In this document: positions 16,817 to 43,693 of the stretch, piece by piece
Numbering within the stretch: the first letter of the stretch is position 1
How the letters are laid out: every line of letters begins with the position of its first letter
From: an uncultured Bacilli bacterium
GTDB taxonomy: Bacteria > Bacillota_I > Bacilli_A > RFN20 > CAG-449
Assembly (NCBI GenBank): GCA_947632435.1
Contig: CANRPC010000004.1
Span: 1-64,000, forward strand
DNA: 64,000 nucleotides
Direction: 5' to 3'
The notes under the pieces: generated by a model
What the model was told of the DNA's origin: nothing
The model's input: only the letters and a program-made list of their open reading frames with translations
The model's database searches: none
Program-made: the position numbers and the translations under genes

Positions 16817-16845
16817 TTTGATTTGTGCCTCCTTTAATTTGTTTT

Positions 16846-18078: not shown

Positions 18079-18093
18079 TTTTTAAAATATCCT

Positions 18094-18705: not shown

Positions 18706-18708
18706 AAC

Positions 18709-19308: not shown

Positions 19309-19322
19309 ATTCCATCCCTTCT

Positions 19323-27827: not shown

Positions 27828-27853
27828 CCATTAAAGGATATGTATTTTTTGCG
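27828..27853 (-). promoter_or_regulatory. Repeated phage promoter-like element, copy 1
   Basis: Minus strand reads CGCAAAAAATACA, eight bases, AATGG. One of seven copies with identical spacing; this one precedes the structured leader of the replication nucleases. Confidence 0.6.
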
Positions 27854-27880
27854 TGCTAAAAAAGATTATTTTCTGTTTAG

Positions 27881-28195
27881 GTGGCACTTTTTTTTCAAAA
27901 TATCATTTTTTATATATTTTTTTTTAAATATAAAATAATAAAATATTTTTGAAAAGTGGCACTTTTTAATAAATATCTTAGAAAAAATACAATTTTAATA
28001 TGATTTTTATATAAAAATATCTTTTTTTCACCCTTTTTTGATATATTTTATTTTTATATTACGTGTCACTTTTTATTAGAAAACTGGCACAAAAGTGGCA
28101 CCAATTAGACACTTTATTTATTTTTTTTGTTTTTTAAAGAAAAATAAATTGATTTATTAAATTAAAAAAATACTTACGTGTCATTTTTGTGTCAC
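27881..28195 (+). repeat. Direct GTGKCAC repeats, candidate phage replication origin
   Basis: A ~330-base gap with no gene, nearly pure A/T except for repeated GTGGCAC/GTGTCAC words, mostly followed by T-tracts: 27881, 27956, 28063, 28095, 28189, with near copies CTGGCAC (28084) and GTGTCAT (28178). All are in the same orientation, like iterons. The location beside the replication cassette suits an origin or an initiator/SSB binding region. The first copy is 27 bases beyond the promoter-like element. Confidence 0.5.
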
Positions 28196-28200
28196 TTTTT

Positions 28201-28674
28201 TTATGCTTTTTCTAATAAAATAAAAGGTGGATCATTATCTTTTTGATGAAAATATTTATGTATAATACTAAACTTAATTTTAAAACCAACTAGGGGTTCT
28301 AAAACGCATATAAATGTATTTGCATATACATTAAATGCATAATTAAAATTAACATCATTTCGATCTTGATAAATATATATTGGTAAATATGTTATCGAAT
28401 TAAAATAAGTAATTACATCTTTTAAAGATAAAATTGTATTTGTATATTTTTTGAATGTTTTTAATTGTTGTTCATTGATTACAAAATCATACATACTATG
28501 TTTCATTGCAATTAATAATTTTTTATCAATTAGTTGTTCATTAGTAATCTCATTTTTACCATCATGCAAAAATAAATATGTATTATTATTATTTATATTA
28601 TCAATTAAATTTCCATAACTATCTTTTAAATATTTTGGATATGAATAAATGTTTACTTTTTCGTATTCAGTCAT
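28201..28674 (-). CDS. Conserved-position hypothetical protein of replication cassette
   Basis: 157 residues, mixed alpha/beta, rich in Asn, Tyr and Ile. No motif recognised. The ATG overlaps the helicase stop (ATGA) and has TGGAGGA upstream, so it is co-translated with the helicase. Ends in a T-rich, repeat-bearing non-coding region. Confidence 0.6.
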   Translation of the reverse strand: MTEYEKVNIYSYPKYLKDSYGNLIDNINNNNTYLFLHDGKNEITNEQLIDKKLLIAMKHSMYDFVINEQQLKTFKKYTNTILSLKDVITYFNSITYLPIYIYQDRNDVNFNYAFNVYANTFICVLEPLVGFKIKFSIIHKYFHQKDNDPPFILLEKA

Positions 28675-29996
28675 ATAATTTCCTCCAGTATTTTATTTTT
28701 TTTATTAATTATTAAAGGTGCATAATCTTTATTATTAAAATTCTTTTTTTGCTTAAGTTTTTGATTAATTCTAATATCAATTTTAGATTTTGAAATTAAT
28801 ATATAATAATACAAATCTTGAAATGGTGTATTAAGTCTATCAATACGTCCCATAGCTTGATGCATAACTTTGTATGAATGATTTAATGAATAAAATATTA
28901 TTGTGTCTGTTTGGATACAATTCCATCCTTCACATCCAGCTGTATATTCAACTAAATATACCCATTTTGTTGTATTAAGTATTTCTTGATGTTTTTGACC
29001 ATTCCATTCTGAAAAAGGATAATTTGCATTCACTAAAAGTTTTCTTAATAATTCCAATTCATAATTAAATGAATAAAATATTATTACTTTTGGATGATTT
29101 GCAAGAATATCAAGAACCGCGTTTAAGCGTGTGATATCTGAATTTACTAATTTTCTTAATGTAAAACAGAATTCGCTTGCATTTTTAATTGGCTCATTTG
29201 TATAAATGTTCCAATGAGTACTATTTATTTGTTTATATTTATAAATATCATATTCAACAGATACATAACATGCATGTTTTATTGTTTTTCTTTCAAAATG
29301 CATATCAATTAGAATATCATTTCTATGTTTGATTAAAATGCCTTCATTAAAATATTTTTTTATACAAGGGTAAGGTGTATGGGTAGACCATATAATATGT
29401 TGATTACTAAAATCAGTTTTATTTTTATAAAAACCATTAGCAATAAACACAGGAATATAATCACTCCATGTATCGCCAGGTGTAGCTGATAATAATATCC
29501 ATTTATTATTTTTTGCTATTTTTAAAAATGATTTAACCCATACACCATAACCAACTAATCTTTGTTCATCTAATATAAAAAAAGCATTAGAAATATCTAT
29601 GTATTTTTTAATATTATTCCATGAGTCAATTATTATCTTGTTTTTAAAAAAATTACATTCCGAATTAGAAGACATACCAAACTTTGCTAATTCGTAATCC
29701 CATGTGTGACTATCACGATTTTTTGCAGTTGTAATAATATATAAATCACAAAGTTTTTTAATTGGAAAAGATATAAGTTTATTACTTTTTTTATCAGTAT
29801 CAACATCAAAAAATTCATGTTTTATATAAATACCTTTTTTGTTCTTTTTTATGTAAAAAACTTTTCCGCCTTGTGATTTATAATAATATGCAATGGCAGT
29901 CCTTGACTTACCAGAACCGACATCACCATTCAAAATGCAACCGTTTTTCATTTTTTTTAATGCGTCAGCCTGGTAGTCAAATAAAAGTTCTGCCAT
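28671..29996 (-). CDS. SNF2-like superfamily 2 helicase
   Basis: 441 residues. N-terminal Q-like LFDYQADAL, motif I LNGDVGSGKSRT (~23-33), motif II FILDEQRLVG (DEQR in place of the usual DEAH), motif III WILLSATPGDTWSDY, then motif V LVEYTAGCEGWNC and motif VI HQAMGRIDRLN with the arginine finger. These phage SNF2-type ATPases travel with VRR-NUC nuclease, SSB-like and polymerase genes in Firmicutes prophages and act on DNA in replication or recombination. It starts six bases after the SSB-like gene. Confidence 0.88.
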   Translation of the reverse strand: MAELLFDYQADALKKMKNGCILNGDVGSGKSRTAIAYYYKSQGGKVFYIKKNKKGIYIKHEFFDVDTDKKSNKLISFPIKKLCDLYIITTAKNRDSHTWDYELAKFGMSSNSECNFFKNKIIIDSWNNIKKYIDISNAFFILDEQRLVGYGVWVKSFLKIAKNNKWILLSATPGDTWSDYIPVFIANGFYKNKTDFSNQHIIWSTHTPYPCIKKYFNEGILIKHRNDILIDMHFERKTIKHACYVSVEYDIYKYKQINSTHWNIYTNEPIKNASEFCFTLRKLVNSDITRLNAVLDILANHPKVIIFYSFNYELELLRKLLVNANYPFSEWNGQKHQEILNTTKWVYLVEYTAGCEGWNCIQTDTIIFYSLNHSYKVMHQAMGRIDRLNTPFQDLYYYILISKSKIDIRINQKLKQKKNFNNKDYAPLIINKKNKILEEII

Positions 29997-30001
29997 TTTT
30001 A

Positions 30002-30568
30002 TTAAAACGTATCTTCTTCTATTTTATTTAGTGCTTCGTCTGCTTCTTCATATTCAGCATAATATCCACCGTATAAATCGGAAGGTCTAAGCACTACTCT
30101 TAAATCATCTAAATATGCACTTGTTCTTGCCTTATCAAGCACAACAGTATGAAATAATTTAAATGTTAAATCAACTCTTTCAAAGGATGCAAAATCTAAA
30201 GATCCTAATGTTTCTGCAGTTAATACCTTTTTATATTTTGTTCCGTCCAATTTAGTACCGTATGTAGCTATTGTTGGTGGATATTCAGAATTAAGATTTA
30301 CTTTAATAGTAATGTATTTTAAACTATCCTCTGATGATTCTCCATCACGAATTCTTTCTTTTACATTTAAGCCTTCTTCTAATAATCGATCTGCTGCTTC
30401 TGTTGTTAAACATAAACAAAAGTTTCGATTGCCTTCACGATTAAAATCAGTTTTTCTTCCTGAAAAGTTTTTATACATGATAACTGCATTACGTACAGTT
30501 ATTCTTTTTCCTATTTTTTCAAATTCACTATTTGCAATAGCATCTTTAATGTTAGAATAATTTGCCAT
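30002..30568 (-). CDS. Phage ssDNA-binding-like protein (DUF2815-like)
   Basis: 188 residues starting MANYSNIKDAIANSEFEKIG; the start is fixed by AGGAGGAAATTATAAA immediately upstream. NFSGRKTDFNREGNRNFCL and the beta-rich KYITIKVNLNSEYPPTI and DLTFKLFHTVVLDKARTSAYLDDLRVV segments look like an OB-fold protein of the DUF2815 type, with an acidic C-terminal tail (EEADEALNKIEEDTF), as in single-strand-binding proteins that recruit partners. It lies between the polymerase fusion and the helicase. Confidence 0.65.
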   Translation of the reverse strand: MANYSNIKDAIANSEFEKIGKRITVRNAVIMYKNFSGRKTDFNREGNRNFCLCLTTEAADRLLEEGLNVKERIRDGESSEDSLKYITIKVNLNSEYPPTIATYGTKLDGTKYKKVLTAETLGSLDFASFERVDLTFKLFHTVVLDKARTSAYLDDLRVVLRPSDLYGGYYAEYEEADEALNKIEEDTF

Positions 30569-30627
30569 TTTATAATTTCCTCCTATTATTCTTTTTTTTT
30601 TAAATATCATTATTCTAAAGAGCAAAT

Positions 30628-33600
30628 TTAATCATCACTAGTAAATTGCTCATAATCTCCATATTTGTTAATTGTTTCAATTGCTTCATTAACAAAATTA
30701 TCAAAGTAAGATAAATCAATATCATTTTCTTTATTAAAAAGTTTTACATCTTCTGATTCTAACCATCTATATCCAGATGCATCATTAACAGAATCATATT
30801 TAATGCTTCCGTCTTTGTTATATGCTTTTCTCAAAAGTAATCCACCATTACATCCAGGTTTAATTGGACAAAATGAACCAACTTTTCCTACAAATTTCAT
30901 AGCATGACCTTCTTTTATTTTTTCATCTATTTCGTTATCTGTAAGATCAGAATATGATTGCAACATCATTTCTTCTTTTTTGGTAAATTTTGTTTCATTA
31001 TTCTTTTTACGTAAGCGAATACTTTTTAATTTTTCATAAATTGTTACATCTGGTTTATTTTCATTTAAATCAAGATATATTGCCGTACGCACTTCTTTTG
31101 TTATACATAAATCACTAAATTCAATTGACTCTTTTGTAAAACATTTTTTATAGACGTAAGGCATTTGAAATTGTGCTCCAGTTGCTGTCCATTTGCCAGC
31201 TTCCTCGCCAAATTTTACTTTTGCAATATAAACTGATTTATTTACAAGACATAAACGTTCATAAGTTGCTTCATGTTCAAATTCATAACCATATTTTTTA
31301 GCAAATTCCATACAAAAATTCTTAATATCGTCTGTCATATTTGGAATCTTAATAGAATCTGTTTTAATATGTGCTACTTCAAAACCTCTTGATTTAACTT
31401 CATCTTCTAATGTTCTCATAAATAAAGCGCCTCTTAAAGCAACAATATTGTTAACATTTCGTGGATCTTTAAAAGGATTATCAAAATTTGCACAAGTTAA
31501 CCCATAAACGGAATTTATAGGAATTTTTAAGGCTTTTGACAATCTCTTTGCTTTTGTAGCATCAGTTAAATATTTTTTTAATTTTCCACCAAACAATTTA
31601 CCAACAGATTCAAAATCACCATGCTTAATATAAACTCTAGCATCAACTAAATTTTTATAATTTATGGTATAATCACCAAAGAAATTTAATGCAATAGCAC
31701 TATGTGGATGCATTGAAACAATATCAAGTAATCCAACATTACTATACATTCCAGGGGTAGCATCAACAAAACCACCAGAGCCTAAATCAGTTCCTCGATA
31801 CATATTTACATAACTAACCGATCCATTAGCACCAACACATTTTTTGTATTCATATCCAGGAAATTCCTTAGATAAATCTGTATATACTAATTGAGGGTGC
31901 TTTTCATTACCAAATATCAATTTAGTTGTAATACTATTTGTTGTATCATTCACAGTCATATCTGCTATATCCGCTAATATTTCTCTAGCTAAAAAATCTT
32001 CTTGCGTCGCTTTCCAAACTGCTTCTGTAGAAAGTACATCATTATCACAATATTCAGCAACTTCTATCCATTTTTCTTCGGGTATAGGTTTATCCCATTC
32101 ATATCCTAATTCTTTATGATGTAAACCTAATTCAATTTCCCATTTTTTTAAGGATTTTTTATCGCTTGAATAATCGTAAATATCTGTGTAGGACAAGTTA
32201 TAAGCGGCACCAAAAGTCCCTTTGCGCTCATTTATTATTGATTGTGATAAAATAAATAATTGTTCACAAGAATATCCTAAATGTTTAGCATAAATCATGT
32301 GATTATCATAACTTCTATTATTAAATCCAACTAACCTATATTTAAATAAAGTTTCTATTTCTGCAGCACTTGGATTAATCATTCTATTAACTCCAGGAAC
32401 ATCTAATATTTTCCAATTTACAAGAAATAAATTTGGGAATGACTCCACATCAAAAAATACAATTGGTGCTTCATCATTATTTATAAATTCTGCATTTTCT
32501 TCGGATTTAAATTTCATCATCATGACTTTTTTTATACATTTTTCAGATTGATGTGTACTTGCTGCTGCAAAATTTAATATTGCATCATACATATTTGTCA
32601 CATCGTATTTAATTCCACTATTATAAGCTTCTTCTAAATCATTATAAATATAATTTATAGACACTGTTGTCGAGCCATATTTTTTATGTAAGTTTTCTAA
32701 AATTCTATTACGTAAATGTTTATCATCTTGAATAGTTTGTGTACTAATCACTTTTCGTTCTCCTTTAAAAGGTAATCCAGATGATATGGTATTAATTTCT
32801 TCAGAATTACATTTTGTTAATTTTCTTCTAAGAGAACTATTACCAGTAAATATCTTTATTTCAATATCATCTGCATATAATCTATTAAGCTTCTTAATAT
32901 CGCCGTTATAAATATAATGCAAGTGAATACCTGCACCAGATTTGCTTAATTCAGCATATGTTTTAGGAAATTTTGAAGCTTCTTTAAGATTTAATTCGTA
33001 AGATTTATTGCCTTGTTCATCTTTTAAATCAAAATCTATGACTATATGATTTTCAGGCAATTTTAAGTAATGTAATTCATTACTGGAAATATCTTTTAAT
33101 GTTGTAGTAACATCAGACCATTTTTTTATTGGTGTACCACCTTCATTGGCATATTGTGCTGGATAATCTTTGCATAAAATATCAAGTTTAGAAGGTTGTA
33201 CTTTAAAATCTATCATTTCATTTATTACATTATTTGTTTTATTACTTTTAATCAGTTTTTGCTTTTCAAACAATTCTTTTTTAAAACCTGAATAGTAATG
33301 CCTAACATAATCGTCACCAACATGTTTCCGCTCATCATAATCTCGAAAATAATCTTTTAATTCTGTTTTAAACATGCTTTTACTATATGGAAATTTTACT
33401 TTGGAATCTTCACAATATTGTTTATACATATCCCAAGCTGATTTTAATGTTGTTCCATCTTCATGACTAAAAACAATATAACAATCATCAATAAAATTGA
33501 AGAAATCATTAGATTCTTCCATCATTCCCATCGGTTTATAATCATCAAATATTTCGGGATTATTTTCATATACTTTTTTACATTTATATGCTATATGTCC

Positions 33601-34560
33601 CAGTTCAAATTTGACTTGTTCTTTTAGGAACAAATATCTATCTTTAGGAATAATATTTCCACTTGGATGTACATCAATAAGTCTTCTCATAAGTCCAGAT
33701 TTTCCATCTGTAATTTTTACATATTTATTACTTGCAACAATTAAAAAAGTTGAAAACTCTCTATAATATAAAGATTTATGTTTTTCATTAACTGTCATTT
33801 CTTCATGAGATACAATTGAGTTTATTGTTTCATTTTTTTCTATTTTTGATAAATCACCATCAAAATTAAACGCTACTAATGGATTTTTCTTAAATTGTTC
33901 TAAAGCAAATTGATTTGAAGATGATCCTAATGAAGATGCATTAAATACTGAATAATATCCTTTAAATAACATTTGGATAATTTTTAATATTGTACCTTTA
34001 CCTGCTCCTGGTGCACCATATAACACTAAAAATTTTTCAATGTATTTTGAAGCCCCAGTAACAATTGCACCAATTGACCATTCAATTTTTAGACGTTCTT
34101 CTTCAGAATATAAAGTTGAAATAAGTTCATCCCATGCATCACATTTTCCTTCTTCAAGAGCATAAGGAAGATGTTGACTAGAATAATCTTCTTTGGTTGT
34201 TTTTTGATTTAAAAATACTAATGAATTATCTAGATTTTTAAAATTATTACACATTTGTTTTTTGCAATAATTATGCCACTTATCAATATATCCAGTTTCA
34301 GCATCCCAAAGATGCATTATTTTAAAATGTTCATCAAACGTTCTATTTTTTTCTTTTGCATATTTATCTAATTCAAAATCAATCAATCGAATTGCATCTT
34401 GCTCATCAGTAGACCATCTATTTTGTTCTTCATCCCAAATAGCATAAAAATCATTTGATTTAATCATGAGGTCATTACTTTTACAAATTATAAATCTTGG
34501 ATAGATTTCCACAACACCATATTTTAAACTCCGTTCAGATATCATTAAGAAATCTAACAT
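30628..34560 (-). CDS. Replicative fusion: SF3/D5 helicase, AEP-type primase, family B DNA polymerase
   Basis: About 1310 residues in one frame (an in-frame TTG lies two codons upstream; AGGAGG serves either). Rough domains: 85-330, D5-like SF3 helicase with Walker A LYGAPGAGKGT (~182-192), Walker B AFNFDGD and sensor LIVASNK; ~455-600, archaeo-eukaryotic-primase-like core with VIDFDLKD, SGAGIHLHYIY and IEIKIFTGN; ~700-850, 3'-5' exonuclease (FFDVESFP, VGFNNRSYDNHM, YCDNDVLST); ~940-1150, polymerase with motif A LLDIVSMHPHSAI, motif B KIPINSVYG and motif C HIKTDSIKI. Motif C has K-T-D instead of D-T-D. This would unwind, prime and copy phage DNA as one protein. The domain order, helicase first, is unusual. 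Confidence 0.88.
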   Translation of the reverse strand: MLDFLMISERSLKYGVVEIYPRFIICKSNDLMIKSNDFYAIWDEEQNRWSTDEQDAIRLIDFELDKYAKEKNRTFDEHFKIMHLWDAETGYIDKWHNYCKKQMCNNFKNLDNSLVFLNQKTTKEDYSSQHLPYALEEGKCDAWDELISTLYSEEERLKIEWSIGAIVTGASKYIEKFLVLYGAPGAGKGTILKIIQMLFKGYYSVFNASSLGSSSNQFALEQFKKNPLVAFNFDGDLSKIEKNETINSIVSHEEMTVNEKHKSLYYREFSTFLIVASNKYVKITDGKSGLMRRLIDVHPSGNIIPKDRYLFLKEQVKFELGHIAYKCKKVYENNPEIFDDYKPMGMMEESNDFFNFIDDCYIVFSHEDGTTLKSAWDMYKQYCEDSKVKFPYSKSMFKTELKDYFRDYDERKHVGDDYVRHYYSGFKKELFEKQKLIKSNKTNNVINEMIDFKVQPSKLDILCKDYPAQYANEGGTPIKKWSDVTTTLKDISSNELHYLKLPENHIVIDFDLKDEQGNKSYELNLKEASKFPKTYAELSKSGAGIHLHYIYNGDIKKLNRLYADDIEIKIFTGNSSLRRKLTKCNSEEINTISSGLPFKGERKVISTQTIQDDKHLRNRILENLHKKYGSTTVSINYIYNDLEEAYNSGIKYDVTNMYDAILNFAAASTHQSEKCIKKVMMMKFKSEENAEFINNDEAPIVFFDVESFPNLFLVNWKILDVPGVNRMINPSAAEIETLFKYRLVGFNNRSYDNHMIYAKHLGYSCEQLFILSQSIINERKGTFGAAYNLSYTDIYDYSSDKKSLKKWEIELGLHHKELGYEWDKPIPEEKWIEVAEYCDNDVLSTEAVWKATQEDFLAREILADIADMTVNDTTNSITTKLIFGNEKHPQLVYTDLSKEFPGYEYKKCVGANGSVSYVNMYRGTDLGSGGFVDATPGMYSNVGLLDIVSMHPHSAIALNFFGDYTINYKNLVDARVYIKHGDFESVGKLFGGKLKKYLTDATKAKRLSKALKIPINSVYGLTCANFDNPFKDPRNVNNIVALRGALFMRTLEDEVKSRGFEVAHIKTDSIKIPNMTDDIKNFCMEFAKKYGYEFEHEATYERLCLVNKSVYIAKVKFGEEAGKWTATGAQFQMPYVYKKCFTKESIEFSDLCITKEVRTAIYLDLNENKPDVTIYEKLKSIRLRKKNNETKFTKKEEMMLQSYSDLTDNEIDEKIKEGHAMKFVGKVGSFCPIKPGCNGGLLLRKAYNKDGSIKYDSVNDASGYRWLESEDVKLFNKENDIDLSYFDNFVNEAIETINKYGDYEQFTSDD

Positions 34561-34575
34561 TTTCAATTTGACCTC

Positions 34576-34758
34576 CTAATCAATATTTGTATTATTTATT
34601 TTTGTTGTTTTAGAGTTATTAGATGTTTTGAATACTTTTTTATATTCGGTAAATGTAACTAAAATTAATTCGCCGAGTAAAAGTGATAATGCTAAATTAT
34701 TTATAGCTATAATATTTTTTAAAATATTCATTCTTAATAATAAACTTCTTTTTTTCAT
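34576..34758 (-). CDS. Small single-pass membrane protein
   Basis: 60 residues from MKKRSLLLRMNILKN, with one transmembrane helix (NNLALSLLLGELILVTF) and a basic, Asn/Thr-rich tail. TGGAGGA lies 9 bases before the ATG. It immediately precedes the polymerase fusion gene. Function unknown. Confidence 0.6.
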   Translation of the reverse strand: MKKRSLLLRMNILKNIIAINNLALSLLLGELILVTFTEYKKVFKTSNNSKTTKINNTNID

Positions 34759-34796
34759 TTTTATTTTCCTCCACATTTTATATTTTTATAAATTTC

Positions 34797-34970
34797 TTAT
34801 TTTGATTTTTTTATTATTTCATCTGCGAAACAATCATCTGGTTCTGGGCAATGAAACGGACATCTTGGATCACAACCAAAATAAGACAATTCAAAATTAT
34901 GAAGATTATATTTTTTACAGAATTCCTCTATTACTTCTTTTTCTGTATAATCACTTAATTCTTTTTTCAT
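34797..34970 (-). CDS. Small cysteine-rich protein
   Basis: 57 residues (MKKELSDYTEKEVIEEFCKKY...). The C-terminal half contains GCDPRCPFHCPEPDDC, a compact Cys cluster likely to bind zinc. Start chosen by AAAGG about 8 bases upstream; it overlaps the preceding gene end. Unknown function. Confidence 0.6.
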   Translation of the reverse strand: MKKELSDYTEKEVIEEFCKKYNLHNFELSYFGCDPRCPFHCPEPDDCFADEIIKKSK

Positions 34971-36028: not shown

Positions 36029-36035
36029 ATTTTTT

Positions 36036-36221
36036 TTAATCTCCATAATTTTGTGTATTTTTCTTAAAAAATTTCTTTTTATTAGTATTCAATATTAATA
36101 AGGTTATGCCAAAACTTATACCACATCCTAATAAGATTCCATCAGTGAATCCATAAATATAATTAAGATATGATTTAATATCAGAATACATTTTTATTTG
36201 TTTTAAAATTATTTTATCCAT
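36036..36221 (-). CDS. Small membrane protein
   Basis: 61 residues with one transmembrane helix (DGILLGCGISFGITLLIL) and a basic C-terminus (KKKFFKK). AAGGAG precedes the ATG. Part of the accessory membrane-protein island; function unknown. Confidence 0.55.
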   Translation of the reverse strand: MDKIILKQIKMYSDIKSYLNYIYGFTDGILLGCGISFGITLLILNTNKKKFFKKNTQNYGD

Positions 36222-36243
36222 GATTTTTCTCCTTTTTATTTGT

Positions 36244-37239
36244 TTAACATTTTACATACGACATAAATGTTTTTTTGTGATTACCTTTTTTATCGTAACC
36301 ACCTGTAAGAATATCTCCATCTGGATTAAATTCTAGAACCATTCCAGGATTTCCACTACGAATAATTTCACGTGCTCTATATGAATAAGAACCATCAGGA
36401 TTTGTTAAACCAAATGAAACACGATTAGCACGAGTTGAATCTTCTGGATCATAAATCCATCCTATTACTTTTGCTTGTTGTCTTTGTCTAACTGTTAACC
36501 AACCCATTTGATAACCTAATGTTTCCCATACATCTTCCATAAATAAATATCCTTGAATCTTCAATTTCATGGTCAATGAACTTTCTTTGGCAATTAATAA
36601 ATCTAAATTATAATTAACGTTTTCTACAAATCCAGGAATTGTTTCATCAAACATTGCGATAAAATCTCCAGGAATAGGTTTTTCTTCTAATGTTGAAATT
36701 TCTTCTAATTCTCCAGTATCTTTATTAAGAACTTGTTTCTTTGTTTCTTTTAATCCTTTTACAATTTCGTCATCTACTGCTTCACCATATTTTTCTTTTA
36801 TTCTATTTCTATATGTAGAATATCCAGCTTTAACTGATGCATAAGCAGCTGCTAACGCCGCATTTCGATTTGCCATTATGTTATGGTTACCAATCGTTGA
36901 AGCAACTGAACAAGCATATAATAATATTGTTGGTGCATAAATTTTTAATATTTTTCCGCTTGATTTAGCCAAAGTTTTTATTATACAATTGCGTGCAGTT
37001 GTTTTATTTATTTTTCTTTTTTCATCATTATATAAATCATTTATATCACTAATTTTATTTTTAGTTTCTTCAATTACTGGCATAGCTTTATGACTTGCAA
37101 CTGAAGCAGTTACAATAGCAATACCACTAGCGGCAATACTTGTTATTGTTAGTATTGTTGGTAAATTCTTTCTAACAAAATATAATAATCCGCTTTTGAA
37201 TCTAATTCTTGAAATCATTTTGTTTATTATTTTATCCAT
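36244..37239 (-). CDS. DUF6353-like membrane protein, paralogue A
   Basis: 331 residues. N-terminal half has two hydrophobic blocks (LPTILTITSIAASGIAIV and LKIYAPTILLYACSVASTIG) followed by NIMANRNAALAAAYASVKAGYSTYRNRIKEKYGEAVDDEIVKG; the C-terminal half is soluble, ending with Gly-rich lines (GNPGMVLEFNPDGDI). The RNAALAAAYA/YRN signature is that of DUF6353 phage membrane proteins. Two further paralogues lie upstream. Role unknown; TGGAGGA precedes the start. Confidence 0.75.
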   Translation of the reverse strand: MDKIINKMISRIRFKSGLLYFVRKNLPTILTITSIAASGIAIVTASVASHKAMPVIEETKNKISDINDLYNDEKRKINKTTARNCIIKTLAKSSGKILKIYAPTILLYACSVASTIGNHNIMANRNAALAAAYASVKAGYSTYRNRIKEKYGEAVDDEIVKGLKETKKQVLNKDTGELEEISTLEEKPIPGDFIAMFDETIPGFVENVNYNLDLLIAKESSLTMKLKIQGYLFMEDVWETLGYQMGWLTVRQRQQAKVIGWIYDPEDSTRANRVSFGLTNPDGSYSYRAREIIRSGNPGMVLEFNPDGDILTGGYDKKGNHKKTFMSYVKC

Positions 37240-37254
37240 TTTTCCTCCATTTAA

Positions 37255-37836
37255 TTATTTAATTAATATAACTTTTGGTAATCTAATGTACCATTTATCA
37301 TCAAGTCCTCTTGAAACACATGCTTCATCAAGATTCGTCCAACCATAATTGTTATCGGTATAATTATGTGGTTCACCCAAAAAATCATAAAAATCAGCAA
37401 TAGAAACAACACCATAACGTGCTACATATTCTTTTAATCTATCTAAAAGTGCCTCTGCATCAGAACGATTTACAAAACTATAATCATTAACTCTATATGC
37501 ACCAGGCGTATTTCTAATTTGTTGATTATATGATGAATATGAAGTATAATCTCTTTCTCTAAAACTTACTCGATCATATGATGATGATTCTTTCCTGCCA
37601 CCATATAACAAACAATCTATAGAAGACTTAAATGTTTCAGATATCATTTTTTTTATACTTGGTATAATAACATTTGTTGCAACATTGTTCTTTACTGTTT
37701 CGACATCAGATGCGAAAAAAGAATTAAATATTTTTAGTAAGAGATTATTTTTCTTTTTTACAGAACCTTTAAATTCAATAGGTTTAATAGGTTCTTTTTC
37801 TTTTTGTATACCTAATTTTCCTTTATTATTTTCCAT
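37255..37836 (-). CDS. Conserved phage accessory protein found with DUF6353 genes
   Basis: 193 residues. N-terminus basic with FASDVETVKNNVATNVIIPSIKK (amphipathic), then a Ser/Tyr/Arg-rich linker and a C-terminal domain with NRSDAEALLDRLKEYVARYGVVSIADFYDFLGEPHNYTDNNYGWTNLDEA. The last block recurs in many Firmicutes phages beside DUF6353 genes. Function unknown; probably cytoplasmic. Confidence 0.65.
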   Translation of the reverse strand: MENNKGKLGIQKEKEPIKPIEFKGSVKKKNNLLLKIFNSFFASDVETVKNNVATNVIIPSIKKMISETFKSSIDCLLYGGRKESSSYDRVSFRERDYTSYSSYNQQIRNTPGAYRVNDYSFVNRSDAEALLDRLKEYVARYGVVSIADFYDFLGEPHNYTDNNYGWTNLDEACVSRGLDDKWYIRLPKVILIK

Positions 37837-37852
37837 TTTTTATTTTCCTCAG

Positions 37853-37902
37853 AAATAAAAACAAAAGGAAAGAGTGATTGTATTTTCACCCTAACCTTTT
37901 GT
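37853..37902 (-). terminator. Terminator closing the 37.9-38.3 kb cassette
   Basis: ACAAAAGG / CCTTTTGT stem with a further six inner pairs, followed on the minus strand by TTTTTATTTC. Confidence 0.8.
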
Positions 37903-37922
37903 AATCAATAAATTCTTTCAAA

Positions 37923-38297
37923 CTAATTTGATTCAGTTGCACAGTTTTCAGGATCAACTACACCTAATTCATCTTCTGTATTTGTGTCTTTATTTTTTGA
38001 TTTTTTTGAAGTCCAAACAGCTTTGATTTTATGACCAAGTTTTATACAACCTTTTACTGTCAATTTACCTACGTATGTTACTCCAATTATGAATGCTGAT
38101 GCTATTGCAAATTTGCCAATATTATCTAACATACTATTTTTTGTTGCAACACTCGTTTGCATAATTTCAGTTTTGACAACTTCAGGTTGATGTTGTACAT
38201 TAGTCAAGTTATTCACCTTTTCTCCTTCTAAAATTCCACAATTTTCTGATGTGTTAATAGTTTCTTTAACTGCTAAATCTAAATTTTCATTATTCAT
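37923..38297 (-). CDS. Single-pass membrane protein in a promoter-terminator cassette
   Basis: 124 residues. Thr/Asn/Glu-rich N-terminal half, one transmembrane segment (IGKFAIASAFIIGVTYVGKL), then a basic stretch and acidic tail. Strong AAGGAGG. It has its own repeated promoter-like element upstream and a strong terminator downstream, so it forms a separate transcription unit. No homologue recognised. Confidence 0.6.
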   Translation of the reverse strand: MNNENLDLAVKETINTSENCGILEGEKVNNLTNVQHQPEVVKTEIMQTSVATKNSMLDNIGKFAIASAFIIGVTYVGKLTVKGCIKLGHKIKAVWTSKKSKNKDTNTEDELGVVDPENCATESN

Positions 38298-38333
38298 TTT
38301 ATTATCCTCCTTTTTTAGAATTTAGTGGTTTTC

Positions 38334-38359
38334 CCAATATATAAAGTGTTTTTTTTGCG
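38334..38359 (-). promoter_or_regulatory. Repeated phage promoter-like element, copy 2
   Basis: Minus strand CGCAAAAAAAACA, eight bases, ATTGG; 36 bases upstream of the start of the transmembrane protein gene. Confidence 0.6.
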
Positions 38360-38362
38360 AGC

Positions 38363-39112
38363 TTACATATTTTTTATATCGCCTAATTTTAAATTTATTT
38401 CGTAAGTTAAGCATGGCTTATCATTAGGTGCAATACATGAATCTAAATATCCATCTAGTAATGTCCCACCTACAATTTGCCAACCAACATCGCTTCCATT
38501 AAACGAATCTTGTAATCCTAATTCTTCTAAATATCTATTTAAAGAAATTATTCCATTATCGTTTAATGCATAAGAATTTAATTTGTTAATAGCTTTACAA
38601 ATATCATTCCATGTTGATTGGAAATAAGCACCAGTGATAGGCTCTTTAAACAAATGTTTGGAATCGTCTGATAAAATTATTTCTTTAGAACCAGACTTTT
38701 CTTCAATTTTCTTATTTGTGTTTTGTGTAATTTGTTTTTCTTTTTCATCATCTAAAACTTTTTTAGTTTGATTTCGATATTCATTAAATGCAGATTCTGT
38801 TAATGCACATGTTGTTGCAAGAGTAATGTTTCTTTTTGCATATATTCTATTACTTGCAATTATGCATACTGTTGAACCTAAAAAGCCTAAAACAGGTGGA
38901 ATATAATACTTCCAACAAAGTTTAACTTTTTCTTTTTTTGTCAGTTTTTTTTCAGTTGAATAACGTTCTATTTGTTTGACTGATTTAAGAGTGGCTTTAC
39001 TAAGTTCAATTGAAGTTAATACAAAACCTATTAAACCTGTTCCTGTCAAACATTCTGGTTCATGATCCAGTAACCAATTTTGAATATTATCGATAAAGAA
39101 TTTCTTCATCAT
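38363..39112 (-). CDS. DUF6353-like membrane protein, paralogue B
   Basis: 249 residues. Same layout as the other two paralogues: hydrophobic TGLIGFVLTSIEL and PPVLGFLGSTVCIIASNRIYAKRNITLATTCALTESAFNEYRNQTKK, then a soluble C-terminal domain with NRYLEELGLQDSF and DVGWQIVGG. It overlaps the upstream paralogue by 26 bases, suggesting tandem duplication within one operon. Confidence 0.7.
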   Translation of the reverse strand: MMKKFFIDNIQNWLLDHEPECLTGTGLIGFVLTSIELSKATLKSVKQIERYSTEKKLTKKEKVKLCWKYYIPPVLGFLGSTVCIIASNRIYAKRNITLATTCALTESAFNEYRNQTKKVLDDEKEKQITQNTNKKIEEKSGSKEIILSDDSKHLFKEPITGAYFQSTWNDICKAINKLNSYALNDNGIISLNRYLEELGLQDSFNGSDVGWQIVGGTLLDGYLDSCIAPNDKPCLTYEINLKLGDIKNM

Positions 39113-39989
39113 TTAAAAATCCTTTCTTTATAAAATCTTCTTTTTTTCCGTCAAAATATTCTTCTGAAGATATGTTTTTAGAAATATAATCGGTATATCT
39201 TTCTGGATTGTAGATTGGCTCTTCGTGAAATTCTATTATTGTGTAACCATTTCTCTTTTTAAGTGATTCATTTTTGATATCTGTTATTTTATTGGAATCT
39301 ATAAATGAAACATAAACCCAACTAGATCCATACATATCCATCAAGTAATCTAAATCCCAGCCAAATTTAAGGTCATCTATATCAAAATCATTACGATCTA
39401 ATAATTCTGCTTTAGCGTCTAATAAAAAATCTTTGATTGTTACCAAAAATGGTTGTGAACAACATAAACCATCTACAGTTCCACAGGATATTCTTTCGTT
39501 TAATTGATTTACCGCTAACAACACATCTTTTTCATACGCTTTAAAAAATCCAGCATGTAGTTCCCAATATAATTTTTTACCATCTTCTATTGGTGTATTT
39601 TTTAATTCATTTTTAGCATCATCTTCTGCGATTGATTTCAATATTTCATCATTTTTTGCTTTACCAATAACTGTTTTTACTTTATTTTCGTATTTTTTCC
39701 ATCCTGCAGATAACATACCTGCTGTTGCAATTAATGACATTTCATTCTTTTTGCTAATAATTGTTGAACTTACTGTTGCTGCAATGGTTAAACTAGCAGT
39801 TATCATGGTTCTCCAATATGCTTTACAAAAATTTTTAGTAATTTCAATTTTATTTTTGCCTTCGTTTGAAATATTTCTTTTACTTTTATTTTGACTATCT
39901 TTAGCCGAAATAAATGCTGTTGAAATAACTCCAACAGAACTAAAAATTGATAAAATAATTGGCAAATGTAATCGTAATTTTGTATTCAT
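39087..39989 (-). CDS. DUF6353-like membrane protein, paralogue C
   Basis: 300 residues from MNTKLRLHLPIILSIFS, the start set by AGGAGG. Two hydrophobic blocks (PIILSIFSSVGVISTAF; TMITASLTIAATVSSTII) and the family-like SLIATAGMLSAGWKKYENKVK, then a soluble domain (RNDFDIDDLKFGWDLDYLMDMYG). More diverged than paralogues A and B. Confidence 0.65.
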   Translation of the reverse strand: MNTKLRLHLPIILSIFSSVGVISTAFISAKDSQNKSKRNISNEGKNKIEITKNFCKAYWRTMITASLTIAATVSSTIISKKNEMSLIATAGMLSAGWKKYENKVKTVIGKAKNDEILKSIAEDDAKNELKNTPIEDGKKLYWELHAGFFKAYEKDVLLAVNQLNERISCGTVDGLCCSQPFLVTIKDFLLDAKAELLDRNDFDIDDLKFGWDLDYLMDMYGSSWVYVSFIDSNKITDIKNESLKKRNGYTIIEFHEEPIYNPERYTDYISKNISSEEYFDGKKEDFIKKGFLNDEEILYR

Positions 39990-40003
39990 TATTTTTTTTC
40001 CTC

Positions 40004-40345
40004 CTAACATTTTTTTAAATAATTTAATAATTTAGTATAAATTTTTATTTTCATATATATTGACATTTTTTCTTTTTGTAATTTGGCATTTTCTAAATCT
40101 GTATATAAAAAGATTATTTCCACTATACATTCATCAATCGGATCAATCGGATCATAAAAATATAAAGATGAATTTAAAATATTATAAATTTGATCAGATA
40201 TTTCTTTTGCTACTTGCCTCCCAACTAAATTCATCCGTTTAATAATTCCGTTGTTTAATTTTAAATTAGAAAAATAATCATGCATTACAAAATTTTGATC
40301 AATATAATTTAAGGCGAGTAAGAATTTTTTATAGTTATCATCCAT
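40004..40345 (-). CDS. Hypothetical accessory protein
   Basis: 113 residues, all-helical by eye (FLLALNYIDQNFVMHDYFSNL...), strong AAGGAG before the ATG. No motif recognised. It heads the operon of DUF6353 paralogues C and B. Confidence 0.55.
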   Translation of the reverse strand: MDDNYKKFLLALNYIDQNFVMHDYFSNLKLNNGIIKRMNLVGRQVAKEISDQIYNILNSSLYFYDPIDPIDECIVEIIFLYTDLENAKLQKEKMSIYMKIKIYTKLLNYLKKC

Positions 40346-40365
40346 TTATTTCTCCTTTCTATGAA

Positions 40366-40415
40366 AAAAATAAAAAAGAATCATTGAAAACTTTTTAATG
40401 TTTAGAATGACTCTT
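40366..40415 (-). terminator. Terminator closing the 40.4 kb cassette
   Basis: AAGAGTCATT pairs with AATGATTCTT (one G-U pair), followed on the minus strand by TTTTATTTTTTT. Confidence 0.75.
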
Positions 40416-40423
40416 AAATATAA

Positions 40424-40603
40424 TTATTCTTTTGCTTCTTTTAATTCTTTTATAGCTTCTTTTTTTAATTTACGTTTAGCATACCATTTAGAAAATTTAT
40501 CGCTTATAACAATACTGGTTATCGTTGAAATAGTAGATATCAATATTGCTTGCTCTATTTTTTTGCATGCTGGTAAACATGATTTAATAAAATTTTTGAA
40601 CAT
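40424..40603 (-). CDS. Small membrane protein in a promoter-terminator cassette
   Basis: 59 residues from MFKNFIKSCLPACKK; GGGAGGA fixes this start. One hydrophobic helix (AILISTISTITSIVIS) and a highly charged C-terminus (KRKLKKEAIKELKEAKE). Own promoter-like element and terminator. Function unknown. Confidence 0.6.
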   Translation of the reverse strand: MFKNFIKSCLPACKKIEQAILISTISTITSIVISDKFSKWYAKRKLKKEAIKELKEAKE

Positions 40604-40617
40604 AAAAATTAATCCTC

Positions 40618-40643
40618 CCATTTAAGAAAGTGTTATTTTTGCG
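40618..40643 (-). promoter_or_regulatory. Repeated phage promoter-like element, copy 3
   Basis: Minus strand CGCAAAAATAACA, eight bases, AATGG; the ribosome binding site GGGAGG begins inside the last bases, so transcription must start within or before the AATGG. Confidence 0.65.
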
Positions 40644-40713
40644 AACTTATTAAAAAGAAAGAATTAAAATGCAAGAGGGGTTGTTTTTCCCTCAAGTCAT
40701 TCAAATATAAATT

Positions 40714-41259
40714 TTATTTATTAAGTTTTATTGGCTTTAAAACTTCTCTCATTATTTCTTTTGCACTGTGATGTACAATACCGTTTTCATATCTTTCATA
40801 ATAAGTATCGTTAGTATAACACCATACGTATAATCCTACTGGTATTAAAGTAATAACTGCTTTAAATACTCCTCCTGTAATTTTGAATGCTTTATCCCAA
40901 AAATAATTTTTCTTATTATTGAGTGCTTTTTTTTCTTCAAGAGCAATCTTTTTTGATTCATTATTAATTCTTTGCATTTCTAATTCAATTCTTTTTTCTT
41001 CTAATTCCTTAGATTTAATATCCATTTCTTTAGCATGCTCAAATTTTAATTTTTCAAGTTTTACATCATGCTCGAATTTCTTCTTCTGTAAAATTAATTC
41101 TTGTTCATGAGATTCATTTGCATTAAGAAAATTTTGCATTTCTTTAATACTTGTAAGAATTTTTTTATCGTTCTCACTTCCTAACTCAGTTTCTGCATGA
41201 AGTATTGTTGCACCATCTTTAATTGTACTTAGTAATGTTTCTTTAGTATTTAATTCCAT
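40714..41259 (-). CDS. Coiled-coil membrane protein in a cassette
   Basis: 181 residues from MELNTKETLLSTIKDG (AAGGAGG upstream). A long heptad-rich coiled coil (about 45-120: LILQKKKFEHDVKLEKLKFEHAKE and on) precedes one transmembrane helix (VFKAVITLIPVGLYVWCY) and a short outer tail. Architecture resembles phage membrane-tethered coiled-coil accessory proteins; no family named. Its promoter-like element overlaps the stop of the upstream gene. Confidence 0.65.
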   Translation of the reverse strand: MELNTKETLLSTIKDGATILHAETELGSENDKKILTSIKEMQNFLNANESHEQELILQKKKFEHDVKLEKLKFEHAKEMDIKSKELEEKRIELEMQRINNESKKIALEEKKALNNKKNYFWDKAFKITGGVFKAVITLIPVGLYVWCYTNDTYYERYENGIVHHSAKEIMREVLKPIKLNK

Positions 41260-41294
41260 CTTATATCCTCCTTTAACTAAAAAATTTACATTTT

Positions 41295-41320
41295 CCATTT
41301 ATGTGATTGTTTTAATTGCG
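41295..41320 (-). promoter_or_regulatory. Repeated phage promoter-like element, copy 4
   Basis: Minus strand CGCAATTAAAACA, eight bases, AATGG; overlaps the stop codon of the upstream gene and lies 36 bases before the coiled-coil protein start. Confidence 0.6.
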
Positions 41321-41620
41321 TTTATTAATGAAATCTTTATCAACAATAATGTTGTTGACTTTAAATGAAACATCTTCACCATTATTGGCATGCATTATTT
41401 TGCTATTAGATCCATTTTTAAGTGATAAGTACAACGAAAACGGATCTCCATTAGGTGGCTTTATAATATTTAAATCACCTAATACTTTAATTTTTTGTTT
41501 TTTTTTAGATGTCAAATATCCAAGACCAAATGTAATTAAAGAGTAACCAATAAATTTTAAAATTGGTTTAGTTTCTTTTTTTAATTTTTTATTAATGATT
41601 TTTTTGTAAAAATTTTTCAT
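41312..41620 (-). CDS. Small membrane-associated accessory protein
   Basis: 102 residues from MKNFYKKIINKKLKK; AAGGAA precedes. A hydrophobic stretch (LKFIGYSLITFGLGYL) follows the basic N-terminus, then a beta-rich tail with LGDLNIIKPPNGDPFSLYLSL. One base separates it from the upstream gene, so the two are co-translated. Unknown. Confidence 0.55.
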   Translation of the reverse strand: MKNFYKKIINKKLKKETKPILKFIGYSLITFGLGYLTSKKKQKIKVLGDLNIIKPPNGDPFSLYLSLKNGSNSKIMHANNGEDVSFKVNNIIVDKDFINKRN

Positions 41621-41621
41621 T

Positions 41622-41867
41622 TTAATTTCCTTTATAAAAATATCCAGTTTGTTCATAAAATAATTTTGGTGAAATATAATAATTGATACGTCCTTTCTTT
41701 GTACCAATTTCTGAAACGTCGGTTATTTTTTTGCCTTTTCTTGTAGCAAAACCAATAGGTAACCAACCTGCGATAATCCCTGCTCTCACCCAACAAGGAT
41801 CTTTCCCATAAAATTTGGCAACTTTCTCCACTGGAATATTGCCAAAAAATTCATCATTGACAGACAT
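41622..41867 (-). CDS. Excisionase-like small DNA-binding protein
   Basis: 81 residues. EKVAKFYGKDPCWVRAGIIAGWLP, then ATRKGK and INYYISPKLFYEQTGYF: the pattern of a winged-helix protein common in Firmicutes phages (x-AKxLGxxxxxVRxGLxxGxLPxG, YYISPKxFxxxTG), related to excisionase/MerR-type domains. It could direct excision with the integrase or regulate the accessory genes. The only recognisable small regulator in the right arm. Confidence 0.65.
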   Translation of the reverse strand: MSVNDEFFGNIPVEKVAKFYGKDPCWVRAGIIAGWLPIGFATRKGKKITDVSEIGTKKGRINYYISPKLFYEQTGYFYKGN

Positions 41868-41915
41868 AATTTTTTCCTCCTTTACTGTATTTGATGATTT
41901 TAATCTAAATTGAAA

Positions 41916-42431
41916 TTAAATATCTTTTTCTTTCAATTCACTATTGTTTTGGTGTGAATCACCTTGAACATTTTGATGATTTTGCCACAAATCACCTTGA
42001 ACATTTTGATTATCTTGCCACAAATCACCTTCAACTTCATGATAGTTTTGGTACAAATCTAATTTAACTTCTTGATAACTTTGATCCAGATATCCATATA
42101 CTTTTTGAGATTGTTGAATTAAATTCTTATTGACTATTTGCTTACTTTGATATAAATCTTCACCAACCCTTTGAAAACTTTGGTGTAAATTGTGTTTAAC
42201 TATTTGACAATCTTGTACCAAATCTCCTTTTACTTTTTGTTCTCGCTGATATAAATTTTTTTTAACTTTCATCCTCGAAATATAAATGTCACCATCAAAA
42301 TTTGAAAAATCTAAGTCGTTTAATTCCAAATTTCCATTCTCATTAACAAAATGAGTTAACACAAATTTTTGAAAATCATCTTTAGTAATTTCAAATTTTT
42401 TTAATTCATTAAATAGTTCTTCTTTAGTCAT
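41916..42431 (-). CDS. Eleven-residue repeat protein (likely beta-solenoid)
   Basis: 171 residues. Residues ~1-50 are a small helical N-terminus (MTKEELFNELKKFEITKDDF). From ~52 to 160 about ten consecutive 11-residue repeats follow the consensus V-x-G-[DN]-L-x-Q-x-x-Q-x, e.g. VEGDLWQDNQN, VQGDLWQNHQN. Strict periodicity with a small residue/Leu core and Gln ladders suggests a stacked beta-solenoid. The repeats are also visible as a 33-bp period in DNA. Function unknown; a scaffold, ice-binding-like or DNA-mimic shape are possibilities only. Confidence 0.7.
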   Translation of the reverse strand: MTKEELFNELKKFEITKDDFQKFVLTHFVNENGNLELNDLDFSNFDGDIYISRMKVKKNLYQREQKVKGDLVQDCQIVKHNLHQSFQRVGEDLYQSKQIVNKNLIQQSQKVYGYLDQSYQEVKLDLYQNYHEVEGDLWQDNQNVQGDLWQNHQNVQGDSHQNNSELKEKDI

Positions 42432-42503
42432 TTTTTTCCTCCTTTTGTAAAATTATTAAAATATAAAAAAAAATTATCTTCAAAAAATTTTCTGCGCATT
42501 TTT

Positions 42504-42537
42504 AGACAAAAAAAATAGAGTTTTCAAAACCCTATTT
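42504..42537 (-). terminator. Terminator closing the 42.5 kb cassette
   Basis: Eleven-pair stem (AAATAGGGTTT / AAACTCTATTT, one G-U) followed by TTTTTTTT on the minus strand; the stem overlaps the stop codon of the preceding gene. Confidence 0.85.
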
Positions 42538-42723
42538 CTTATTTTTTGAAAATAAACTTTTTACATCTTCAATTATACTTTTACCGTATTTAATAGTTTT
42601 TTTGGTTTCTTTTCCTATACTCTTTGCCGAACTAGACAATAATTTGCTACCGAATCGAATACGGAACCCCCATGTTTTAAACTTAATTTTTGTTTTAAAT
42701 AATTCATAATATAATTTAAACAT
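42532..42723 (-). CDS. Small basic amphipathic protein in a cassette
   Basis: 63 residues from MFKLYYELFKTKIKF; AAGGAG upstream supports this over the ORF's first ATG. Strongly basic (SKLLSSSAKSIGKETKKTIKYGK, ending FSKNKK), with no full transmembrane helix. Own promoter-like element and terminator. Unknown. Confidence 0.6.
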   Translation of the reverse strand: MFKLYYELFKTKIKFKTWGFRIRFGSKLLSSSAKSIGKETKKTIKYGKSIIEDVKSLFSKNKK

Positions 42724-42739
42724 ATCTTCATTCTCCTTT

Positions 42740-42765
42740 TCATATAAGCACATGATTTTTTTGCG
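42740..42765 (-). promoter_or_regulatory. Repeated phage promoter-like element, copy 5
   Basis: Minus strand CGCAAAAAAATCA, eight bases, TATGA; same spacing as the other copies, with one change in each conserved block. Confidence 0.55.
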
Positions 42766-42800
42766 TGATAAAATATAGAGAGATTGTTTATCCCTCTATA
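42765..42800 (-). terminator. Weak terminator after the 42.8 kb gene
   Basis: TATAGAG / CTCTATA stem with a 13-base loop, followed on the minus strand by TTTTATC; it abuts promoter-like copy 5. Confidence 0.5.
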
Positions 42801-43075
42801 ACATGTCGATCATACCAGACGAAATAATTTGTGTTATTTCCAAAATATTTGTTCCAAGTTTTTTCAAAATCTTCAACACTCATAAAATCTTTTTTATTTT
42901 TCTTATTATTATAAAATAAAATTTCAACCTTTTTAGCTTGTCCAAAGGTAAATGCCCAATAGACATCTAACAAAGCTTCATTTAAAAAGTTTTGATGTAA
43001 TTTATAACAATCATTATTTTTAGTTTCTATAAGTATTGTGTATTTGTTTTTTTTTCTGAAAATATTTTTAAACAT
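42788..43075 (-). CDS. Small accessory protein in a cassette
   Basis: 95 residues, basic N-terminus (MFKNIFRKKNKYTIL) then a mixed alpha/beta domain with ALLDVYWAFTFGQAKKVEILFY and SVEDFEKTWNKYFG. No family recognised. Strong AAGGAGG; own promoter-like element and a short terminator overlapping its end. Confidence 0.6.
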   Translation of the reverse strand: MFKNIFRKKNKYTILIETKNNDCYKLHQNFLNEALLDVYWAFTFGQAKKVEILFYNNKKNKKDFMSVEDFEKTWNKYFGNNTNYFVWYDRHVIEG

Positions 43076-43095
43076 ATAATTTCCTCCTTATATTT

Positions 43096-43121
43096 TCATT
43101 AAAATAACTGTTATTTTTGCG
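43096..43121 (-). promoter_or_regulatory. Repeated phage promoter-like element, copy 6
   Basis: Minus strand CGCAAAAATAACA, eight bases, AATGA; 20 bases before the gene start. Confidence 0.6.
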
Positions 43122-43135
43122 TAATAAAAAAATAT

Positions 43136-43432
43136 TCACTTTTTTAACCAATTTTTAACCGTTATATCACATGGAAAATTTTCATATTCCAACATATCAG
43201 TATTTAATTTTCCTTTATTAAATCCTTCTATAATTGCTTTTGAATATCGTTTATATCGTAGGACATCATCGGGTAATTTCCCATGCCAAGATCCACAATC
43301 ATTACAGCGGAATCGTTTTACTTTTACTTTTTTAAAATTATTATTACCTAATTGTATTTTCCTCCAGTAATATCCGCGTGGTTGCATTTTACCACCGCAT
43401 TTTGGGCATTTTGTGTCATTTTTATTTATCAT
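43136..43432 (-). CDS. DUF6431-like zinc-ribbon protein
   Basis: 98 residues with two Cys pairs: CPKCGG near residue 9 and FRCNDCGSWHGKLPD near residue 42, followed by VLRYKRYSKAIIEGF. This order is typical of DUF6431, which resembles the zinc N-terminus of transposase-like proteins and is common as a free-standing small protein in Firmicutes mobile elements. No catalytic transposase domain is attached. Ends KNWLKK. Confidence 0.7.
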   Translation of the reverse strand: MINKNDTKCPKCGGKMQPRGYYWRKIQLGNNNFKKVKVKRFRCNDCGSWHGKLPDDVLRYKRYSKAIIEGFNKGKLNTDMLEYENFPCDITVKNWLKK

Positions 43433-43496
43433 ATAGAACTCCTTTACACAATGTCCAAATGATAAATTTTTAATGACAAAAAATAAGGAGTTTGAT

Positions 43497-43536
43497 AAAA
43501 TAAAAGTGAAGGTAAATTCGTAACATTTATCTTCAC
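43497..43536 (-). terminator. Terminator after the 43.6 kb small gene
   Basis: GTGAAGATAAAT pairs with ATTTACCTTCAC (11 of 12), 7-base loop, followed by TTTTATTTT on the minus strand. Confidence 0.85.
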
Positions 43537-43548
43537 CATTTTGAATAC

Positions 43549-43665
43549 TTAGTTGCTATTTATGATTTCGTAGTATTCCTCATATGATACATATTCATGA
43601 CCATATTGATCTACGAAACTATATCCAGTATCAACTAAGTTTTTTTCATTATCCGTTATTATCAC
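43549..43665 (-). CDS. Very small protein gene with no AUG start
   Basis: A 38-codon frame ending DTGYSFVDQYGHEYVSYEEY and YEIINSN is framed by promoter-like copy 7, a GGAGGTGAT ribosome binding site and a strong terminator, so a transcript is likely. The frame has no ATG; possible starts are the GTG overlapping the Shine-Dalgarno or an ATA codon at the ideal distance. The only nearby ATG gives MKKT then stop. Composition (acidic, Tyr-rich) looks coding. Confidence 0.45.
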   Translation of the reverse strand: MIITDNEKNLVDTGYSFVDQYGHEYVSYEEYYEIINSN

Positions 43666-43667
43666 CT

Positions 43668-43693
43668 CCAACAAAGTAAATGTAAAAATTGCG
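43668..43693 (-). promoter_or_regulatory. Repeated phage promoter-like element, copy 7
   Basis: Minus strand CGCAATTTTTACA, eight bases, GTTGG; the ribosome binding site GGAGG starts in its last two bases, placing the transcript start inside the element. Confidence 0.6.

Follow-up and report, generated by a model that had tools for sequence, protein, structure and literature searches.

A repeated 26-bp prophage element as the probable promoter of a phage-encoded two-barrel RNA polymerase

Which polymerase reads a short sequence that a prophage repeats, always in one orientation, in front of its genes? The question is raised by the 64,000-nucleotide stretch of an uncultured Bacilli bacterium analysed here (contig CANRPC010000004.1, positions 1 to 64,000; hereafter the window), in which an initial annotation had noticed seven copies of a 26-bp element and proposed a non-canonical promoter. 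We conclude that the element is very probably the promoter of a phage-encoded single-chain RNA polymerase (RNAP) of the two-barrel kind, which belongs to the phrog_4291 family.

The seven copies lie at 27828-27853, 38334-38359, 40618-40643, 41295-41320, 42740-42765, 43096-43121, and 43668-43693, all on the minus strand and with exactly the letters described. Using the pattern CGCAAW6CAN8AATGG with at most two mismatches, we obtained seven matches in the window, all on the minus strand, where 0.73 were expected; none of 100 shuffled windows reached seven. At most one mismatch gave five matches in the 1.68-Mb genome, all among the seven window copies. With two mismatches, the rest of the genome gave 12 matches, the same as the reversed-pattern control, so that host matches are at chance level and the concern that the element might be equally frequent in shuffled or host sequence is answered. 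A weight matrix was trained on 159 elements, which came mainly from relatives and included the seven window copies. It returned the same seven and none on the opposite strand, while random sequence gave about 0.25 matches per 64 kb at the same score. The statement that no further copies are visible by eye in the prophage was borne out, as pattern and matrix scans of both window strands add none.

Element positions are counted from 0, so that position 24 is base 25 and the inferred +1. Transcription from copies 1 to 7 would start at 27829, 38335, 40619, 41296, 42741, 43097, and 43669, respectively. The initial annotation had placed most copies 15-45 bases before a gene start. Counted from +1, the start codon lies at a distance of 93, 38, 16, 37, 18, and 22 nt in copies 1-6; the ORF headed by copy 7 has no canonical start codon. 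Copy 1, the predicted late-operon promoter, heads an operon of endonuclease, exonuclease, RNAP, and structural genes, and copies 2 and 6 head the genes 37923-38297 and 42788-43075. In copy 3, the Shine-Dalgarno sequence (SD) GGGAGG starts at +1 and the ATG is at 40603. The gene after copy 4 starts with ATG at 41259 following AAAGGAGG. In copy 5, the SD AAGGAG comes 2 nt after +1, and a hairpin terminator lies upstream (z -3.5). In copy 7, the SD GGAGGTGA stands at +1. The small open reading frame (ORF) after copy 7 (43549-43669, minus strand) has this strong SD but no ATG, GTG, or TTG at proper spacing; its start would have to be ATA or ACG.

The motif scan that the initial annotation had suggested for related phages found hundreds of copies in relatives infecting Firmicutes and Actinobacteria hosts. 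From 159 and later 743 elements, the consensus CGC-RAAWWTTACA-N4-CTWTWAT-G(+1)RRR was built. In both sets the order is T-tract, CGC, R, AAWWTT, ACA, N4, CTWTWAT, G, and purines, and nothing is conserved further upstream. Relative to +1, the CGC box occupies -24 to -22, the ACA box -14 to -12, and CTWTWAT -7 to -1; the first two are about 11 bp apart, which is one helical turn. The fixed layout originally described is retained, but its "8 bp, then AATGG" is recast as N4-CTWTWAT followed by the starting G, and this second half of the element matters.

The candidate polymerase is encoded at 23689-26760 on the minus strand (1023 amino acids). It matches phrog_4291, annotated as RNA-dependent RNA polymerase, at E~0 over almost its whole length, and the Pfam RdRP family PF05183 weakly. 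Helix-turn-helix (HTH) domains are found at about residues 71-91, 128-146, and 983-1017, the C-terminal one being Sigma70_r4-like. A DFDGD sequence at residues 552-556, which conforms to the DxDGD motif, is invariant in 72 aligned sequences. As a model from only 8 sequences reached pLDDT 56, we used an AlphaFold model from 72 sequences (pLDDT 82, pTM 0.73). In Foldseek, its best solved matches were maize RDR2, Thermus phage P74 gp62, and Arabidopsis RDR2, with AR9 nvRNAP weak. All five matches at E ≤ 0.001 are two-barrel RNAPs (best E 1.5e-5), in keeping with a double-psi-barrel fold; TM-scores of 0.21-0.36 and an rmsd above 11 Å restrict this likeness to the domain level. A sequence search of the PDB returned mainly HTH proteins and no polymerase. 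By motif and modelled fold, the protein is assigned to the single-chain two-barrel RNAPs, with polymerase activity predicted. Members of the family are found in 251 of 50,697 phage records, and at least 579 contigs of IMG/VR encode one. Many of the 251 records label the enzyme "helix-turn-helix DNA-binding domain protein" (e.g., MN183282, MF189170, and MH153801).

Element and polymerase occur together, whichever is taken as the starting point. Among 43 recruited motif-bearing records of at least 30 kb, 36 encode the RNAP at E~0, compared with 251/50,697 overall, and in all 36 elements and RNAP share the same orientation. Starting from the enzyme, a sense-strand element lies upstream of 67 of 70 RNAP loci at a median distance of 955 bp, while antisense elements are found at 0/70. 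The elements stand on a single strand, in front of genes, in 43/43 motif-bearing records. Many gene-strand copies were also found on contigs recruited via an unrelated small gene (41622-41867). Faecalibacterium phage FP_oengus (oengus) has about 14 copies on one strand only, and the element is present in Arthrobacter Mudcat, Gordonia Kenosha, Streptomyces OlympicHelado, saliva phage contig89, and MT835485. Whole-record counts (forward/reverse/control) are 15/0/0 in ReqiPepy6, 10/0/0 in Count, 21/0/0 in Qui, 7/0/0 each in Michelle and Yotsuba, and 10/0/0 in OlympicHelado. Element-bearing phages that all have the RNAP infect Faecalibacterium, Arthrobacter, Gordonia, Streptomyces, Rhodococcus, Microbacterium, and Curtobacterium; the count is zero in the RNAP-less Enterococcus AL2 and Lactococcus 98201. 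A motif search of IMG/VR gave 114 stretches and the reversed pattern 0. The strict form was met in only 24 stretches of 257 Gb of bacterial genomes, nearly all from Lachnospiraceae or other Clostridia. Lactococcus P162 has at least 10 copies of the divergent form TTTTACATACCCTATAATGA, with a best antisense score of 3 against at least 41, as scored with a matrix refined on that same sequence. The one match in the whole SPbeta record is probably due to chance. Open-access literature searched for the motif, for actinophage motifs, and for FP_oengus gave no report of the element.

Several observations weigh against assigning the element to this polymerase. Seven of the 43 motif-bearing records lack the RNAP. 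Most of these are pieces of 33-48 kb, but two are large: G116 (73.8 kb) and MT835485 (70.6 kb, 22 copies). These two are explained only by assuming a missing end. In G116, the RNAP would be expected close to the end of the contig. The MT835485 record is missing relatives of three window genes that are present in oengus, those for terminase, portal, and capsid. The genes for DNA polymerase, helicase, and DUF6353 co-occur with the element too. The phages are related, so the co-occurrence counts are not independent across records; the boundary of the RNA start described below is unaffected by this. The P162 form is reduced to the half ACA...CCCTATAATG, a strict match occurs once in Streptomyces PherryCruz, and the mapped late start region of prophage SPbeta, compared at the start of yonK, has no matching motif.

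Co-occurrence is also compatible with a separate phage DNA-binding protein that reads the CGC and ACA boxes and recruits the phage or the host polymerase, with the HTH domains of the RNAP not reading the element. Several small phage genes are conserved, and Forrest et al. (2017) left open whether YonO, the RNAP of SPbeta, needs extra factors (PMC5467207). The DNA-binding candidate 41622-41867 was, however, not found in the searched parts of the element-bearing Mudcat and MT835485, and the RNAP itself carries three HTH domains. We regard such a protein as possible but unlikely.

The place where RNA would start can be read from the elements themselves. After matrix positions 24 and 25 had been neutralised, position 24 was a purine in 740 of 743 elements (G 657, A 83, C 2, T 1); where it is A, the next base is almost always G. 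In 615 elements with a recognisable SD and ATG, no SD starts before position 24; 108 start at positions 24-28, almost none at 29-33, and the remainder further downstream. The first seven bases after the boundary hold 110 SD starts. Genes resembling tRNAs follow 18 distinct elements, with 5' ends at positions 24-31. Because the purine rule, the SD boundary, and these 5' ends agree, we place +1 at position 24, and the start within the final block that had been proposed for a non-canonical promoter is upheld by the relatives' 743 elements. In the Kenosha, OlympicHelado, and oengus stretches, which are only 8-21% non-coding, +1 falls in non-coding DNA for 29 of 29 elements, and the antisense strand of these stretches has no matches. 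Terminator-like hairpins (z below -2) lie upstream of 38% of elements compared with 6% for a control stretch; this is what one would expect of elements that each start transcription anew behind a terminator.

The same boundary bears on host sigma-A promoters, in which CTWTWAT would be the -10 hexamer and CGC...ACA a phage activator site in the spacer. The block does read exactly TATAAT in actinophages and in Lactococcus P162. A -10 at positions 18-23 would, however, put +1 near 30-31, so that at least 108 genes would lose their SD and most of the 18 tRNA-like genes their 5' end; the boundary of the late hairpins described below disagrees with it as well. A -10 needs a near-invariant A as the second of its bases and a +1 some 7 nt further downstream, but position 19 is A in 61% and T in 32% of elements overall, varying between A, T, and others in gut phages and being mostly T in the late subclass. 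Nor is there a -35 hexamer at about 17 bp, as positions -40 to -12 relative to CGC hold less than 0.1 bit each. On these two defining features, the element is no sigma70 promoter, in agreement with the reported absence of TATAAT and TTGACA, and we consider the sigma-A explanation improbable.

An RNA element, whether a site of cleavage just ahead of position 24 or a 5'-leader sequence that enhances translation, would equally be expected to give mRNA and tRNA 5' ends at position 24, but it is highly improbable given the terminator-like hairpins and T tract directly upstream, the initiating-purine rule at position 24, and the behaviour of the ATG in the element, which opens no longer ORF and is ATAG instead in 74 copies. 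An operator for a phage repressor has a precedent in SPBRE/MrpR of SPbeta, likewise a repeat scattered over intergenic regions in a phage that has a two-barrel RNAP, and is just as implausible here, because orientation to genes and distance to the RNA start are fixed and the element occurs in phages that, according to their authors, have no repressor or integrase reported (e.g., Count).

Reading ATGG in the element as a start codon was considered and rejected, since the frames are mixed, the 74 copies are ATAG variants, and ORF lengths give no signal. Cloverleaves resembling tRNAs begin at +1 of an element or within a few nt of it in the stretches L156 (minus strand, offset 9907), L137 (minus strand, offset 3563), L025 (12910), L091 (2607), and oengus L030 (2936-3005). 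Their acceptor stem reaches a T tract, and the anticodon arm is degenerate, with a 6-nt loop or a UUCG tetraloop. Rfam identifies those of L156 and oengus as tRNA with a shortened anticodon loop. From their sequence, they resemble tRNA mimics that lack an anticodon and would be products of the phage polymerase.

Copy 1 stands before the endonuclease, exonuclease, and RNAP genes, a position shared by the window, oengus, Mudcat, and most relatives. The first gene is the endonuclease (27383-27736, phrog_93), the order being conserved in oengus and Mudcat, followed by the exonuclease (26764-27399, phrog_3953) and the RNAP. Downstream on the same minus strand lies the late structural block (6195-21071) with terminase (19323-21071), portal (16846-18078), protease/capsid (15098-16816), and tape measure (6195-12311). 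Late copies form the subclass CGCGAAAAAAACATGCCCTTTTATGAGAGAGAAGA, in which position 19 is T in 85%, where other elements mostly have A. The late transcript is predicted to carry a 5'-terminal hairpin (27741-27828, minus strand) with a 13-bp stem that begins 1-2 nt after +1. In a 90-nt fold (z -2.1), the sequence from 27828 onward pairs with 27757-27744, and the hairpin terminates in a T tract; folding of only 60 nt missed it. Of 67 late copies, 60 have a hairpin that starts in the first 4 nt, compared with 240 of 743 elements overall, which agrees with +1 at position 24. The hairpin may stop host polymerase arriving from upstream or protect the 5' end. YonO is reported to pause little, which would suit the former role.

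From the conservation, co-occurrence, one-strand layout, start boundary, polymerase fold, operon, and hairpin, all obtained by computation, we infer how the RNAP would recognise the element. The enzyme, or its built-in HTH domains, would bind the CGC box and the ACA box, whose spacing would fit two tandem HTH domains. It would then melt CTWTWAT and begin RNA at the following G (or A), the first of the purine run. Copies 2-7 would be early or middle promoters driving small genes; for some of these, the RNA would begin directly with the ribosome-binding site. Copy 1 would belong to the late subclass and drive the endonuclease, the exonuclease, the RNAP itself in positive feedback, and then the structural genes, with an RNA that starts with a hairpin plus U tract. 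Our confidence is evenly divided on a wider proposal, namely that in a Firmicutes-Actinobacteria phage clade one polypeptide of the ancient two-barrel lineage alone reads duplex promoters via built-in HTH domains without sigma, and that the +1 hairpin terminator, ignored by the phage enzyme, shields the late operon from host polymerase.

YonO was the first characterised phage RNAP of its type; its promoter sequence is given as not established, and unaided promoter finding was left undefined (PMC5467207). With the element, a large RNAP family gains a well-defined predicted promoter of about 30 bp, which has at least two subclasses and hundreds of variants in nature. In about 250 sequenced phages, the element can serve to predict transcription units; it also makes the start signals of such polymerases directly testable, and RNAP and element could give a compact orthogonal polymerase/promoter pair.

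Other features of the window stand apart from these questions. About six AAAAGTGNCAC-like repeats, one of them palindromic (AAAAGTGCCACTTTT), lie directly upstream of copy 1 (27855-28210, minus strand), and Mudcat has AAGTGGCCA repeats in the corresponding place (L033, 27139-27500); repressor operators or origin iterons are possible. The late genes 21120-21791, 18709-19308, and 18094-18705 (minus strand) share the N-terminal sequence HxGIKGQKWGIRRFQNKDGTLTxEG or one near it and, by this sequence, are paralogues among the head genes. Three DUF6353 paralogues of unassigned function are located in the early region (36244-37239, 38363-39112, and 39087-40010, minus strand). Relatives are present in oengus and Mudcat; used as probes, these proteins found none in IMG/VR and none in 57 related host genomes.

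Among known systems, SPbeta YonO is likewise a single-chain DxDGD RNAP of a Firmicutes prophage serving a late operon, a role that is predicted for the window enzyme, with the exonuclease gene yonJ close to where that operon begins (PMC5467207). YonO and the window RNAP give no significant sequence match, and SPbeta has no phrog_4291 match; the window enzyme is distant kin of YonO and of the eukaryotic RDR/QDE-1 enzymes. SPBRE resembles the element in being spread over intergenic sites of a phage that encodes a two-barrel RNAP, but it is an operator of the repressor MrpR and not a promoter (PMC10516654). The actinophage start-associated sequences (SAS/ESAS) and the cluster EC repeat are also oriented intergenic repeats just before start codons, but differ in sequence and cluster (PMC7302621). 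Passages on clusters EL and AM, which carry the window-type element, mention no such repeat.

In the Thermus phages P23-45/P74-26, promoter motifs of the two-barrel vRNAP (gp96) and nvRNAP (gp64) were mapped by cappable-seq (PMC10770324). As proposed for the window, a two-barrel phage RNAP has its own short motif upstream of a set of start sites, and the motif follows the presence of the RNAP; unlike the window element, one of these motifs is AT-rich and the other GC-rich (PMC10770324). The model of the window RNAP matches P74 gp62, solved as 8f5m, but the enzyme is of another family than those of P23-45/P74-26 and has three HTH domains. T7-type promoters are about 23 bp long and are used by a phage single-chain RNAP, with the start inside the element at G followed by purines; their polymerase is unrelated in fold and sequence. 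By analogy, the element would work like these T7-type or P23-45 phage promoters, being short and self-contained with the start inside.

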